Shown here piece by piece: positions 3,801 to 27,284 of a stretch of DNA of 30,469 nucleotides (its first letter is position 1; each line of letters starts with the position of its first letter). Under the pieces are notes generated by a model. The model was not told the origin of the DNA, did no database searches, and saw nothing but the letters and a program-made list of their open reading frames with translations. Origin of the DNA: a virus; the IMG/VR virus record IMGVR_UViG_3300010885_009210, positions 1-30,469 of that record; one strand, given 5' to 3'. A program made the position numbers and the translations under genes.

Positions 3801-6800
3801 AATCCATTGACCCCGAATTAAATGGATCACTTTTAAACCCATAAAAATCTATGGTTCCTCCAGTATAGTTCCTAATCTTATAATTAGTACTTAACGACTC
3901 GTTGGTTGCATAATATTTTTTATAATTGAAATCATTCCAAACACCGTCCAAAATATCAACACCATCATCAATATATTTTTTATATCGGTGCCATATGGAA
4001 CCATACTTTAACATTAAAGAATAGGGTATTTGATGTATTGATGAAAAGTTTTTTAGTGTTGCACCTAACGCATCCAAGTTTTCATCTTTGTTTATGTCAT
4101 ATAACTGATCCACTAAGTCGGCTAACGGTATAGAGTTTAGGTAGATATACCCAAGAGCTGCGTATGGGTTTTCTTCATTTAATTTGTCTTTCTCAACACC
4201 CTTTAATAATGCATTTACAAAATAAGGGGTGTTTAATAACGAACATTGTTGTATTGGTGTTCCTACATTTCCTTTATATAATGAACTGTTTAACTCTATT
4301 TTATCTACAGTTATATAGTTGCTATTACTTGTACCATTTTTAAAAAAGTTCTGTAAGGTTGTTCGATCATTTATTGTTGTATTATTAATCTTATTTACCA
4401 ATACTTTGGTATTAAAGTTTTTAAATTGTTGGTCCGCATAATATTTAAAACACCTAATCGTTTTATAATCATCGGTTTCGTTTATTCTAGCAATAGTTTT
4501 TTTATCATCTAAAAATATATACGTTTTACTTGTGTCATTAAATGATATGTTATCCATAAACGGGGAATAATCATTAATAAAATCACTATCGGTATATGGT
4601 AAGGTATCTAAAAATGATAACTCCGAAATGTTAGAACTCCTTAAATATGCTTGGAATTTGTCTACTAATGGTATTGTGTTATCCAAACTAATTGATCGGG
4701 CATTAATAGATCTTAAATCATAAAGACCAAAATCGTTCTGTATGTCGTTTTTTATATATTCCGTAACATAATTATCTCTAATAAAATCAGCCCAATTATC
4801 ACCAGTACCATTGTTAGATATTGATCTCAATTCGTCCCTCAAAGTCTGTAAGTTATATTTTTTAGTTTTTAATATTTGTTTTAACTCAGGACTGTTGATT
4901 GCCGATCCTATAATATTTTTAGCCTCTAAATCTGCTAAAAATTTACCAATTTGGTTTTGGTTAAATGTGCTTTTATTTAATTTAGTGTAGTGACTTAAAG
5001 CATATATTCTTTCGTACATCTCATAAAAAAACGGAACTATCGATGTATTCTCATATGGTACGTTATCAAAAGGGAAATAAATTGTATTACACGAACCGTA
5101 CTTCGCTAATTCTTTAGGATTATTATAAACATTTCTATTGACCTCCTTATTCTTTTTTGTTGACGCATTTAGATAATCTTCTAAAAACTTTACTTCAGGC
5201 CACACACTTAAATCGAACGCCTCCGTTTTATCACTATATTTAGGATCACCAACATACCTAATATTATATTTTTCTGTACCATCCTTTTCAGTTTCTTGTA
5301 CATAATATGTTGGCCAAGGATATACTATGTTAATATTTTTTATGTCGGTCGATGTTCCTCCAATATTATTTTTACCGTCAATTCCTTCGTTTTTATTTGG
5401 GGGTAATATTGTACTAACTCTTCTTGGGTTATCTCTTTGGTTCCAAGACTGTGTGTGGGTTCTATCCATTAAACGATAAAATGTATCCAAACCAGCCATT
5501 AATATTGCCATAACATTTCTTATGGTTGGTGCATATCCTAACCCTCCATTCTTATCTATTAATTTTTTTGATAAGTCTTCAGATAATTGGGTTTCTATCT
5601 TTTCTTCTTTTTCATCTATTTTTGCAAATAAAAGTTGTATTTTATCTAAAAAACTATTTGCAACATATTGAACCCCTCCAAATTGTATTTCACCATATTT
5701 TAGTAGGATTGGGAATGTCTCAATGTCATTACCATTCACATCTTTAATTGTTTCCTTTAATATGAAATCTTTTGTTAATTGAGTAATAAAAACATTAACC
5801 TGATCGTCTGTTGGTGTAGTATTGATTCTCGCAGCTAAAGTTTTTTTGTAATCCGCAAATGTTAATATGTTATAATTAAACACTTCAAAAATTTCAGTAT
5901 CGTTTATATTTACAGGTATTTGGTCGTTACCATCGGCGTCCTGACCAAAAGATGCGTTTTTACGCATATTATCAAGTGAATTATTAATCTCCTTTTTAAT
6001 AGCACTAATTATGTCTACTCTTTTTTGGTATGTTAATGTATTTTTAAACGGATAATAAATTTGATTGTTATATATGAAATAGTTAGTGGTGTCCAAATAA
6101 TTTTTTAAAATAACCTTATATGACCTGTTTTTCAGTTCTTGTAGGTCGGTTCTAAACTGATCTATATCACTTAAAATAACGAAGTCACCCTTTTCTATGT
6201 TTTGTTGCATAGTTGTTGTGAAACTATCAGCATCCTCAATAAATTCATCTATTGTCAAATGTGGAAAATCAGAAGCGATTAAACCTTTAGATTTATAAAT
6301 TTTATAAACCTCATCTAATATTTGACCACCTAAAGAGGTCTCTTTAGTGGTCGTTGTTGTGGTTGTTGAGTTTGTTGGTGATGGTGCTTCCTCGGTTACT
6401 ATTGTTGGCGACATTTTTGGTGCTGTCCTAGCATAATCTAAAAGACTATCACTTAAAAGACCTGAATTTTTTCCAAGTAACTTTAAACTAATTTTAAAAT
6501 TACCTAACTCTTGATCAAAGGTAGCATTAAAACTTATTAAATTCAAACTATACCTAATAGCTTTACCATAATAACCTTTAAGTGTTAAATAAAATATTGG
6601 GTATGGTAAATTAAAAAATACGGAATATAGTGACTTTTCACCTTGTTCAAATAATGTCCTCCCTTGTACGTCAACTAATTCAATATCAACCGTTGGGACA
6701 AACATTCCTCCAGCCTTTCCACCTGAGATATCAACTTTAATACTAGTGATACCTAACATTTGAGTATCTTCGTAATTCAGTATGTCTCTAACGTATCTTG

Positions 6801-23318: not shown

Positions 23319-26183
23319 ATGGAAGAATTAATTTCAAGAACGCCCGAAACACGGTCACTTCAATTACTTGACGAATATGAAGGATCAAATAACTACATCT
23401 TAAATTTAAAACACAAAAAACAAAATAGTAAATCGTTTACACCTACCAGGTCTCAAGCGGAGTACATTATAAATTTTCACGGTCGTACACCAAAGGTTGC
23501 AAAAAAATGGGTCAAACTCGATTCGTATTTTGGTAAAAAAATGATGGAAGAAAAAATGTATACCAAAGAACCAACAGAGATTTATGTTGAGAAACTTTTG
23601 GTTGAGAAAGATAAATCATACCATATATGGGGTAAGATATTTAGTGGTGAAACTGTTCACGATTTTTGGATACCAAAAACTGCTATCATTAAAGACAATG
23701 AAGTTAAAAATATTGTTGTCGATTATACAAAATACGACTCAAGACCACCAATGAATCACCAAAAAGAGGCGATTCAAAAGTTAGTAGGTAATAAAAAGTT
23801 TATTTTGGCGGACGATATGGGTTTGGCAAAAACAGGTTCATCAGTAATAGCTTCATTAGAATCAGGAGCAAAAAAGATTTTAGTAATTTGTCCCGCATCA
23901 TTAAAAATAAATTGGCAAAGAGAGATTAACATATATAGTAACCGTAGTGTTTATATTGCTGAAGGTAAAAAAATAGAAACTAATCACGATTATGTGATTG
24001 TTAATTATGATATTTTAAAAAACTTCCATGACATAAAAAATAAAGAAAATTCTGATATTTTAAAAGCCAATTTTGATCTTTTAATTGCTGACGAATGTTT
24101 TTCTTACGACACTAAAATAACAACAAATAAGGGTGAAATCAAAATTGGTGATATTGTTGAAAAAAATTTAGATGTGGACGTTTTGTCTTATAATCATGAA
24201 ACAAAAAAAACCGAATACAAAAAAATATTTAGAAAATTATCTAAAAAAACAGACACTATACTTCAAATTAAATTACGCAACGGAGTATTTATAGAGTGCA
24301 CACCAAACCATAAAATATATGTAAAAGATAAAGGTTATGTTAGATCAGATAAAATCAAATCAAACGACTACGTGTTTGAACTGTCAAAAATTATTAACAA
24401 AAAAACAAATAACGAAAAAAACTCAAACTTGTTCAAAATCTTGCAGCACAACATACAGATACAAAAAAAATCCACCACAAAAAAAAGAAATAGAATTAAA
24501 ACATCAAAAAGAATGTTTAAATTGTGGAGAAATAATGAAATTTCAAACACAATCACAAATGAAAAAACAAATTTGTTGTTCAATAAGTTGCGCAAGCAAA
24601 ATGAAATGGAAGAGTGTAGAAACAAGACAGAAGTGGAAAAATTCTATGAAAAAACACAATATGTCAGAAAAAATGAAAGAAGTGCACAGGAACAATCCAA
24701 ATATAAGACTGAAATCATCGGAAAGGATGAAAAAAAACAACCCAATGTTCAATTTGGAGTCATTGGAAAAAATGAAAAAATCTTTAAAGGGAAAAACTTT
24801 TTTATCAAGAGGGGGGAACGGGAAATTAACGAAACAACAAAAAAAATTATACGAATCTTTAGGTCAGGGTTGGGAAATGGAGTATACTATTTTAACAAAG
24901 GGTTATATTGGAAATCAAAAAAGTTTACCAAATCACTACAACGTAGATATTGCCAATTCAAAACTGATGTTGATTATAGAAATAGATGGGAAAAGTCACA
25001 AACTGAAAAAATGGAAATTTATAGACAAAAGGAAAACAGAAATATTGACTTCATTAGGGTGGAAAGTGTTGAGGTTTTGGAACGAGGAAATAGACAACAA
25101 CATAATGGGATGTGTAGAAAAAATACAAATGTGTATGATTTAGAAATTGTGGATAATCACAATTATTTCGCAAATGGTATTTTAGTTAGTAATTGCCATG
25201 TTGTAAGTAACCCCCAAGCACAAAGAACAAAAATTGTTAATGATCTATGTGATAAAATTGATAGGGTTTGGTTATTGACGGGAACACCAATGACCTCAAG
25301 ACCGATGAACTATTTTAATCTTTTGAGTTTAGTTGAGAGTCCTGTTGCATCAAATTGGATGGCTTATGCAAAAAGATACTGCAACGGATTTCAATTTAGT
25401 GTTGGTAAAAGAAAAATTTGGAACGTTACTGGAGCATCAAACTTAGATGAGTTAAGGGAACGAACACAATCACACATTCTTAGGAGACTAAAAGAAGACG
25501 TTTTAGATTTACCCGATAAAATTATTACACCCGTTTATTTAAGATTAAAGTCTAAAGACTATGAAGAACTTATGGGTGAATACTATGATTGGTACGACAA
25601 AAACCCTGATGAATCCGGATCATTGACCATCCAATTTGGTAAATTGATGAAGGTTAGAAAAGTTATTGCCGAAGAAAAAGTTAAAAATACTATTGAGTTG
25701 GCTGAGAACATTATTGAGCAAGGAAAAAAAGTTATCATATTTACAAACTTTACAGATACATTACGTGCTATTTATAACCATTTTGGAAAAAGTGCGGTTT
25801 ATTTAGATGGGTCTTGTTCAAAACCTCATCGACAAAAATCTGTGGATGATTTTCAAGAGAATGATAAAATTAAAGTGTTTGTTGGAAACTTAAAGGCTGC
25901 GGGTGTTGGTATTACTTTAACATCGGCTGAAGCGGTTATTATGAATGATTTGTCGTTTGTGCCGGCAGAACACGCACAGGCAGAAGACCGATCACATAGA
26001 ATAGGTCAAAAAAATTCAACATCAGTTTACTATCCCCTTTTTGAAAATACTATAGAGGGTGCGATCTACAACATCTTAAATAGAAAGAAAAAAATTATAT
26101 CCACAGTTATGGGAGATGACCTGTTATTGGACGACGCATCTTCAATAGAAGAAATGTTAAAAATAATTTCTAATGGTAGGTGA
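23319..26183 (+). CDS. SNF2-family DNA helicase/ATPase interrupted by an intein
   Basis: 954 residues as translated, about 588 after splicing. Motifs in order: LADDMGLAKT (Walker A, K171; GLAKT instead of the usual GLGKT), CPASLKINW (Ia), VIVNYDIL, LLIADE|CH (motif II, split by the intein after E259), LLTGTP (about 652-657, III), a C-terminal lobe with KVIIFTNFTDTL, and QAEDRSHRIGQ (887-897, motif VI). This is an SNF2/SMARCAL1-like set, so it probably translocates on or remodels branched DNA during phage replication or repair, a role like T4 UvsW. The start is ATG 23319; the frame is open further upstream, but that stretch overlaps the gp14-like gene on the other strand and precedes the box. 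First gene of the plus-strand operon. Confidence 0.9.
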   Translation: MEELISRTPETRSLQLLDEYEGSNNYILNLKHKKQNSKSFTPTRSQAEYIINFHGRTPKVAKKWVKLDSYFGKKMMEEKMYTKEPTEIYVEKLLVEKDKSYHIWGKIFSGETVHDFWIPKTAIIKDNEVKNIVVDYTKYDSRPPMNHQKEAIQKLVGNKKFILADDMGLAKTGSSVIASLESGAKKILVICPASLKINWQREINIYSNRSVYIAEGKKIETNHDYVIVNYDILKNFHDIKNKENSDILKANFDLLIADECFSYDTKITTNKGEIKIGDIVEKNLDVDVLSYNHETKKTEYKKIFRKLSKKTDTILQIKLRNGVFIECTPNHKIYVKDKGYVRSDKIKSNDYVFELSKIINKKTNNEKNSNLFKILQHNIQIQKKSTTKKRNRIKTSKRMFKLWRNNEISNTITNEKTNLLFNKLRKQNEMEECRNKTEVEKFYEKTQYVRKNERSAQEQSKYKTEIIGKDEKKQPNVQFGVIGKNEKIFKGKNFFIKRGEREINETTKKIIRIFRSGLGNGVYYFNKGLYWKSKKFTKSLQRRYCQFKTDVDYRNRWEKSQTEKMEIYRQKENRNIDFIRVESVEVLERGNRQQHNGMCRKNTNVYDLEIVDNHNYFANGILVSNCHVVSNPQAQRTKIVNDLCDKIDRVWLLTGTPMTSRPMNYFNLLSLVESPVASNWMAYAKRYCNGFQFSVGKRKIWNVTGASNLDELRERTQSHILRRLKEDVLDLPDKIITPVYLRLKSKDYEELMGEYYDWYDKNPDESGSLTIQFGKLMKVRKVIAEEKVKNTIELAENIIEQGKKVIIFTNFTDTLRAIYNHFGKSAVYLDGSCSKPHRQKSVDDFQENDKIKVFVGNLKAAGVGITLTSAEAVIMNDLSFVPAEHAQAEDRSHRIGQKNSTSVYYPLFENTIEGAIYNILNRKKKIISTVMGDDLLLDDASSIEEMLKIISNGR
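24286..24293 (+). promoter_or_regulatory. TATTTATA inside the intein, upstream of the nested endonuclease
   Basis: Exact plus-strand copy, 43 bases before the ATG of the nested endonuclease, a spacing not far from those of the tube and sheath genes. It is also coding sequence of the intein (VFIE), so it could be chance; about three other exact copies lie inside genes. Confidence 0.25.
24337..25143 (+). CDS. Homing endonuclease (Vsr/DUF559-like) nested out of frame inside the intein
   Basis: 268 residues, read +1 relative to the helicase/intein frame and lying wholly inside the intein. Two zinc-finger-like units: C13-x2-C16...C32-x3-C36 and C60-x2-C63...C81-x3-C85. A Lys/Asn/Met-rich middle (about 95-160) with NUMOD3-like repeats (ERMKKNNPMFNLESLEKMKK, then LKGKTFLSRGGNGKLT). 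A PD-(D/E)xK/Vsr-like nuclease domain: E180/E182, YNVDIAN (D204), EIDGKSH (D217, H221), D230, and GWKVLRFWNEEI. This set fits the EDxHD homing endonucleases found near split inteins. ATG 24337 is the only ATG before the first finger; AAAGG lies 2 bases upstream and a TATTTATA 43 bases upstream. The stop falls within intein block F. It would cut intein-free helicase alleles to spread the intein. Confidence 0.85.
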   Translation: MLDQIKSNQTTTCLNCQKLLTKKQITKKTQTCSKSCSTTYRYKKNPPQKKEIELKHQKECLNCGEIMKFQTQSQMKKQICCSISCASKMKWKSVETRQKWKNSMKKHNMSEKMKEVHRNNPNIRLKSSERMKKNNPMFNLESLEKMKKSLKGKTFLSRGGNGKLTKQQKKLYESLGQGWEMEYTILTKGYIGNQKSLPNHYNVDIANSKLMLIIEIDGKSHKLKKWKFIDKRKTEILTSLGWKVLRFWNEEIDNNIMGCVEKIQMCMI

Positions 26184-26195: not shown

Positions 26196-27284
26196 ATGGA
26201 AGTGAATACTAAATATAACGGAGACACCACAAAAGAACAAAAAGACTTAATTAATAAATTTGTTGAGTTTTTAAAAAAAGAACTACCACTTAAAGATGAT
26301 GTGGAAATTGATTTTTTAAATCAGAGAACAGGAAAAATGACTACCGGTAGTAGAACCGACACTCATCGTTTAAAAATATTAGTTAAAGACAGATTAAATA
26401 GGGACATATTAAAAACCTTATCTCACGAATGGCATCACGAATACCAAAGAACGGTTTTAAAAAGAAAAAAAGGCCCGAATATCGGGGGTAAAAACGAAGA
26501 CGAAGCAAATGCGAAGGCCGGTGAGTTAATGAAAAAATTTGAACAAAAAAACAAAGAGAAAATAAAATCTGTTTACAAACCATTTCAAAATAAGATCAAT
26601 GAATTGGAGATTAAATTAAATGAAGATTTAATTTCACATAAAAATATTATTTCAGAAATAAAAAGTATAAGTGTTGAAAAATTACCTTACGATTATAACT
26701 CTGTAGAGGGGTTTATAGATTCAGAAACAATGAAAACTCACTACACAAAACATTATAAGGGGTATGTTGAGAAATTAAATATAGAGTTAGAAAAGGTTAA
26801 AGGTCCTGATTTGGATATTGAGTCAATCATTAAAAAAATATCTAAATTTAATGATAAAGTTAAAAATAATGGTGGTGGGGCATTTAATCACGCATTATTT
26901 TGGAAAATGTTATCCCCAACGAAACAAGAAATAAAAGACCCAATCAAAAGTAAAATAGAAAAAACTTTTGGTTCTATAGATAAATTTAAAGAGAAATTTG
27001 AAGAGGAAGCAAAATCCCGTTTTGGTTCCGGTTGGGTTTGGTTAATATTAACAAAAAATAATACTTTAAAAATAGTCACCACACCAAATCAAGATAACCC
27101 TCTGATGAATACTGAAAAAATACTGGGGTACCCCATATTGGGTTTAGATGTTTGGGAACACGCTTATTACCTAAAATATAAAAACCAAAGAGACAAATAC
27201 GTTAAAAACTTTTGGAAGGTTGTTAATTGGTCGTTTGTAAATGATTTATACACAACCCAAATAGAAAGAAACAAATCAAAATAA
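26196..27284 (+). CDS. Fusion of an HEXXH metallopeptidase-like domain and a Mn-type superoxide dismutase
   Basis: 362 residues. N-terminal domain (about 1-115): a helix carries SHEWHHEY, giving HEXXH H77-E78-xx-H81, followed by EDEANAKA (E101/E103, possible third zinc ligand), as in minimal zincin peptidases. A Lys/Glu-rich helix (116-160) joins it to a full Fe/Mn superoxide dismutase (161-356): LPYDYNSVEGFID, HYTKHYKGY, NNGGGAFNHALFWKML, FGSGWVWL, TPNQDNPL, LGLDVWEHAYYLKY. Metal ligands H182, H232, D318 and H322 are present, as are gateway Y190, H186 and W320. Gln299 in NQD and the GGG before H232 point to the manganese type. It has no signal peptide, so superoxide would be removed in the cell or possibly in the virion. 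It lies 12 bases after the helicase and 27 before a neck gene. The protease function is less certain than the SOD. Confidence 0.88.
   Translation: MEVNTKYNGDTTKEQKDLINKFVEFLKKELPLKDDVEIDFLNQRTGKMTTGSRTDTHRLKILVKDRLNRDILKTLSHEWHHEYQRTVLKRKKGPNIGGKNEDEANAKAGELMKKFEQKNKEKIKSVYKPFQNKINELEIKLNEDLISHKNIISEIKSISVEKLPYDYNSVEGFIDSETMKTHYTKHYKGYVEKLNIELEKVKGPDLDIESIIKKISKFNDKVKNNGGGAFNHALFWKMLSPTKQEIKDPIKSKIEKTFGSIDKFKEKFEEEAKSRFGSGWVWLILTKNNTLKIVTTPNQDNPLMNTEKILGYPILGLDVWEHAYYLKYKNQRDKYVKNFWKVVNWSFVNDLYTTQIERNKSK

Follow-up and report, generated by a model that had tools for sequence, protein, structure and literature searches.

Canonical large inteins carry a LAGLIDADG or HNH endonuclease domain in frame. 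The fractured genes reportedly described by Dassa et al. in 2009 are said to be arranged differently, with split inteins and a free-standing EDxHD-type endonuclease between the two halves. A third arrangement is the ShiLan element, an out-of-frame HNH endonuclease in actinophage DNA methylases (Arsenault, Gosselin and Gogarten 2025, PMC11855218); neither this element nor the Pacc40 insertion has a splicing domain (PMC11855218). The locus described here lies in a viral DNA of 30,469 nt, the whole of IMG/VR record IMGVR_UViG_3300010885_009210 (hereafter the window), and all its features are on the plus strand. First of all, it resembles canonical inteins in having a Hint splicing domain and a predicted homing endonuclease at a conserved motif, but one polypeptide carries both there, whereas the window would encode two proteins from overlapping frames. 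Second, like the fractured genes, it combines an intein with an EDxHD-type endonuclease in a phage-like helicase, and split forms (L260, L272, L300) occur in the present family; the window intein, however, is contiguous, with no stops between its halves, and the endonuclease lies inside it in the other frame. Third, it shares with ShiLan an out-of-frame endonuclease in an insertion without host-frame stops, a mobile distribution and a likely own start. ShiLan, on the other hand, lacks a splicing domain, is thought to stay in a dispensable methylase and encodes an HNH enzyme, whereas the window element is, on our reading, a real intein with a Hint domain in Walker B, has an EDxHD-type enzyme and keeps the same phase in more than 100 loci. 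Finally, I-Bth0305I from a phage group I intron (PDB 3r3p) has the same catalytic fold as the nested enzyme (Foldseek probability 1.00, target TM 0.68) and similar active-site residues, although it is intron-encoded, does not overlap an intein and gives a weak sequence match (E 0.027). In the open-licence literature we found no published precedent for an out-of-frame endonuclease inside an intein, the nearest case being the non-splicing ShiLan element.

We are confident that the window contains a mobile intein in the Walker B motif of a helicase, with a homing endonuclease encoded out of frame and overprinted on the Hint linker. Reading of the helicase frame would give a precursor in which Hint-N and Hint-C surround a disordered linker of about 215 aa, and splicing out of the intein would restore a DEAH-type helicase. 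An internal start at ATG 24337 would give a separate 268-aa EDxHD-type endonuclease with zinc fingers, which would cut intein-free helicase alleles at the DE/AH site, whereupon repair would copy the intein across. The helicase frame would thus be kept stop-free because the helicase must be completed, and the nested protein would be kept functional for homing. Sequence comparison shows the architecture, its conservation, selection on both frames and a footprint of mobility; splicing, translation of the nested gene and cleavage are activities that we infer.

The host helicase and the two predicted products of the overlap

The SNF2-type DNA helicase precursor gene occupies 23319-26183 (N-extein 23319-24095, C-extein 25194-26180) and is recognized by Pfam as SNF2-rel_dom (4e-18) and Helicase_C (2e-18) and by PHROG as a helicase (1e-98). 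Its frame is open from 23319 through 26183, the whole of 24096-25193 included. The insertion site is the Walker B motif, DE^CH. At the same site, 80 close helicases that lack the insertion read a continuous DE-AH (A in 79, S in one), which places the intein within Walker B and indicates that it supplies the +1 Cys, at 25194-25196. The ORF that adjoins the helicase, 26196-27284, begins with an unrelated N-terminal part, which is followed by a complete Fe/Mn superoxide dismutase domain (E 6e-42), and a related ORF also follows the helicase in L003 and L009.

The nested gene extends from ATG 24337 to a stop ending at 25143, is in the +1 frame relative to the intein and encodes 268 aa. The protein has two zinc-finger-like CxxC units and a DUF559/EDxHD catalytic domain (Pfam DUF559, E 2e-16); its AlphaFold2 model (pLDDT 85) has 3hrl, I-Bth0305I (3r3p) and Vsr (1vsr) as best Foldseek matches, indicating a Vsr-like catalytic fold. 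The putative active-site residues E215, D217, H221 and D230 (E-D-xx-H-D signature, 24979-25026) are invariant in alignments of 31 and of 11 relatives. The enzyme is a predicted homing endonuclease that would cleave the empty allele, for which the co-conversion-like tract described below is indirect evidence. The original prediction, that both frames are open, over 24096-25193 and from ATG 24337 to 25143, is borne out by the sequence, and separate searches of the two translations bore it out too, with DUF559 in the nested frame only and Intein_splicing in the intein frame only; with Pfam, PHROGs and PDB profiles, the intein frame gave no match to an endonuclease and the nested frame none to an intein. 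Its NUMOD3-like repeats had to be given up: Pfam finds no NUMOD3 domain in the nested protein, and the conserved segment SERMKKNNPM is a look-alike only.

How the nested gene is translated can be approached through its start. A Shine-Dalgarno match of at least 5 nt precedes the nested start candidate in 34 of 83 loci, compared with 4.1 ± 1.8 for matched random starts, and this roughly 8-fold enrichment suggests that the nested gene probably has its own start. In phage CP-T1, the site falls within the codons that specify DEV in the intein. No Shine-Dalgarno match precedes the nested start of the window, and since none is visible on inspection at its helicase start either, the window lineage may not use such sites. 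Alternatively, programmed ribosomal frameshifting could join the endonuclease to the N-extein and Hint-N in one fusion protein; the missing match in the window lineage would fit this, as would the overlap of the frames upstream of the ATG, which is confined to 24325-24336, the +1 frame opening only at 24325. We nevertheless consider frameshifting unlikely, as it would need a +1 (or −2) shift instead of the common −1, the nested ATG is kept 241 nt into the intein in 9/9 loci and Shine-Dalgarno sites are enriched at nested starts across the 83 loci. Translation from an own start, rather than by frameshifting, is thus the probable route.

The intein itself (24096-25193) has 366 aa, with Cys1, T69xxH72 and the C-terminal Asn366. 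In a 28-sequence alignment C1 is invariant, and in the Block B TxxH motif H72 is invariant and T69 nearly so. The C-terminal Asn is present in 77/77 loci and is followed at +1 by Cys (71) or Ser (6). Pfam Intein_splicing matches the frame at E 1e-7, which for the window intein taken alone is under the curated cut-off; profile matches to solved inteins reach 2e-13, and a Foldseek comparison of the intein model with solved mini-inteins reaches E 2e-7, as expected of a Hint fold. AlphaFold2 predicts a confident Hint fold at residues 1-98 and 317-366, the N-terminal part (24096-24389) having a pLDDT of about 92 over residues 1-90. The middle, residues about 99-316, is mostly disordered (pLDDT mostly 35-50); here, over 24390-25043, the endonuclease is encoded in the +1 frame and the intein frame is an open linker. 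ShiLan, as an out-of-frame endonuclease insertion lacking splicing domains (PMC11855218), offers a model in which the insertion stays unspliced and is tolerated within the helicase. For the window this is very unlikely: both Hint halves are modelled with high confidence and match inteins of known structure, the terminal Asn and a +1 Cys or Ser are found in 77/77 loci, and an insertion within Walker B should kill an unspliced helicase. The 366-aa insertion would instead be an intein capable of splicing.

Conservation of dual coding in a fixed phase

The arrangement is widespread. In ten further loci from other metagenomes the nested protein is 52-96% identical and both frames are open. It is also found in cultured phages, namely Vibrio phages including CP-T1, Pseudomonas phage MR14 and Corynebacterium phage phi673; in all five of the cultured-phage records examined, the nested ORF lacks an annotation and is +1 relative to the annotated helicase, and a second query of the cultured-phage collection returned the same 40 records (the same organisms). 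Nine sequences that span both ends of the intein, one of them the window, were compared; in all nine the nested gene starts 241 nt after the intein begins, and its last sense codon ends 53 nt short of the intein end. Compensating indels that would bring the endonuclease into frame were looked for, and none were found, these nine sequences from separate assemblies keeping the same start and end offsets; relatives with one frame full of stops were likewise looked for, and dual coding holds in all intein-bearing relatives found first. Both the nested and the host frame are open in all nested relatives found, with no indel breaking either.

Two surveys by nested-protein patterns only, which overlap in part, gave 114 + 108 = 222 classified loci. 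The endonuclease was nested in the +1 phase in 102/114 (101 without one short hit) and in 96/108, and in the other overlapping phase in none, making 197/222 credible nested cases (198 scored, with L156, a short hit with both frames open, not counted). Pooling these with the loci found first gives 205 nested loci, 147 of them non-redundant at 80% identity; over 33,837 codons these 147 have 0 stops in the host frame, compared with 2,666 in the third frame. Because an open host frame across the match was a condition for entering this pool, the informative figure is the share of nested loci in the surveys. The nested loci, which belong to phages and prophages, span GC contents of 26-68% and lie in helicases, helicase-methylases and phage terminase large subunits, an example of the last being L269 (2774-4897; Terminase_3 E 3e-25). 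In L098 (2873-6838), the helicase has two inteins: the nested-endonuclease intein at Walker B and another at Walker A, which has LAGLIDADG-like motifs in frame.

The absence of stops is far beyond chance, in agreement with the original prediction. When the synonymous codons of the window's nested gene are shuffled, 16 stops are predicted in the intein frame, whereas 0 are observed and 0/5000 shuffles reached 0; the third frame of the overlap has 38. In 14 other loci the same shuffling gave means of 4.6-16.3 stops with 0 observed in all; in one locus, L111, 0.2% of shuffles reached 0. A host-frame stop in the +1 phase arises only where a nested third-position T is followed by AA, AG or GA. Across 88 non-redundant loci, nested Y-ending codons before these dinucleotides end in T in 0 cases and in C in 1332, compared with 3570 T and 2814 C elsewhere in the same loci. 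Since a wobble change from T to C is always synonymous, the +1 phase is suited to hiding host-frame stops. Dynamic programming over 88 proteins shows that every host-frame stop can be avoided synonymously in this phase, whereas in the other overlapping phase a median of 3 stops, and 8 in the window, cannot be avoided. This is one reason why only the +1 phase is found; the shared 3′ edge is another.

At the two edges of the overlap the same bases encode structured parts of both proteins, and the dual-coding examples of the original prediction (SNDYVFEL with TTTCLNC, VESVEVLERGN with GWKVLRFWNEE) are correct. The 5′ edge (24337-24389) encodes the last Hint-N strands and the start of the endonuclease up to the first zinc-finger cysteines. 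At the 3′ edge (25044-25143), the Hint strand RVESVEVLERGN shares bases with the nuclease strand GWKVLRFWNEE, so that RVESVEVL and GWKVLRFW are read from the same nucleotides; in the AlphaFold2 models, the strands on these bases are intein residues 317-329 (RVESVEVLERGN) and nested residues 243-248 (KVLRFW). Codon choice in the GWxVLRF motif of 88 loci is biased: its Leu is TTR in 74/79 cases compared with 747/1467 elsewhere, and its Arg is AGR in 69/88 compared with 553/1661, choices that put V/I and E into the Hint strand. From GW to the intein end there are 134 nt in 56/82 loci and 137 nt in 9/82. Residues of the 3′-edge intein strand do change among close relatives, mostly V/I and E/D, which suggests that strand character rather than the exact residues is constrained. 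The real double constraint on protein structure thus lies at the two edges of the overlap, of which the 3′ edge is the best shown.

Codon-position rates among relatives, proposed as a check in the original prediction, agree with selection on the nested frame, whose third positions are the most variable in the overlap (0.37, vs 0.25 and 0.22 at the other positions). Between the window and L003, the nested frame has a dN of 0.046 and a dS of 0.355 (dN/dS 0.13), and the Hint-only parts have dN/dS of 0.16 (Hint-N) and 0.17, which indicates purifying selection on the nested protein and the Hint ends. The middle of the intein frame has a dN of 0.093 and a dS of 0.073 (dN/dS about 1.3). The claim that both frames are selected thus stands for the nested frame and the Hint ends, while selection for full amino acid sequences in both frames is rejected for the middle; between the Hint halves (residues about 99-314) the intein frame is selected only against stops and indels, and its amino acids drift.

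A chance open frame, an assembly artefact or a pseudogene overlap might have been suspected as long as this was a single-genome observation in A-rich DNA, but we regard such explanations as already refuted, and their likelihood as negligible, given that the arrangement is common to independent assemblies, species and cultured phages and given the shuffling tests and the purifying selection on the nested frame. Equally negligible is the likelihood that the DNA is a group I intron encoding an endonuclease, with an intein-like frame that is incidental: although EDxHD enzymes such as I-Bth0305I are known from group I introns (PMC3943268), 23300-26300 has no Rfam match to a group I ribozyme core or other RNA up to E = 1, and the intein motifs, the fold and the open host frame in 147 loci speak against it.

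Probable homing and related forms of the element

The footprint of mobility is seen in the extein upstream of the intein. Compared with the inteinless L014, the window helicase has an identity of 0.97-1.00 up to about 23660, 0.60-0.82 from there to the intein and about 0.93 in the C-extein, the drop marking a probable co-conversion tract left by homing at 23660-24095. With the intein-bearing L002, which is about 0.83 identical elsewhere, identity rises to 0.88-0.98 in most of 23799-24095, the 300 nt that precede the intein, and to 0.98 in most of the intein itself. The upstream extein flank has thus probably been replaced, in a pattern that is the footprint expected of homing with upstream-biased co-conversion.

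Other states of the element exist. In split forms, Hint-N and Hint-C are still in the same phase, and the host frame has 15 stops in the endonuclease region in L260 and 24-25 in L272, L273 and L300, which shows that the frame is kept open only in loci whose host gene has to be read through. In all four the insertion directly follows a DEAD-like Walker B motif (DEHHR^C, DESHS^C). In L303 (2902-3750; also L372) a nested endonuclease lies in the intein of a clamp-loader-like gene whose host frame contains one TAG, which may mark an incipient split, a recoded stop or a sequencing error. L312-L316 carry a related endonuclease that shares the frame of its intein, which is inserted at HPN^CRC in a phage head-morphogenesis-like protein (host identified by eye). 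In L112, L262 and L267 a free-standing endonuclease lies directly upstream of an inteinless helicase. In the helicase of L267, the frame is broken by one base precisely where the intein would be inserted (4860-4960; DE, CGGA, CAC), either a repair scar or a sequencing error. Canonical, nested, split and free-standing forms are connected by these states. The original prediction held that the locus looks like an intermediate, and the existence of split, nearly split, in-frame and free-standing relatives lends support to this, in whichever direction evolution ran.

Inteins are normally thought to carry an endonuclease in frame or to have lost it. We give roughly even odds to the wider proposal that the window belongs to an ancient and widespread class of mobile inteins with an overprinted endonuclease, phase-locked by the bases shared between the last intein strand and the nuclease core strand, with host-frame stops hidden synonymously, and that this class is the direct source of split-intein fractured-gene loci once the requirement for the host frame is lost. 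In any case, a large class of apparently endonuclease-free inteins carries a complete endonuclease in the other frame, and intein surveys that read the host frame only will have miscounted mobile inteins. Since cultured phages carry the nested-endonuclease intein, it is directly testable. The family also provides a large natural set of long same-strand overlapping genes whose register is fixed and evidently old, and it offers a concrete path by which in-frame inteins, split inteins and free-standing homing endonucleases could be linked.
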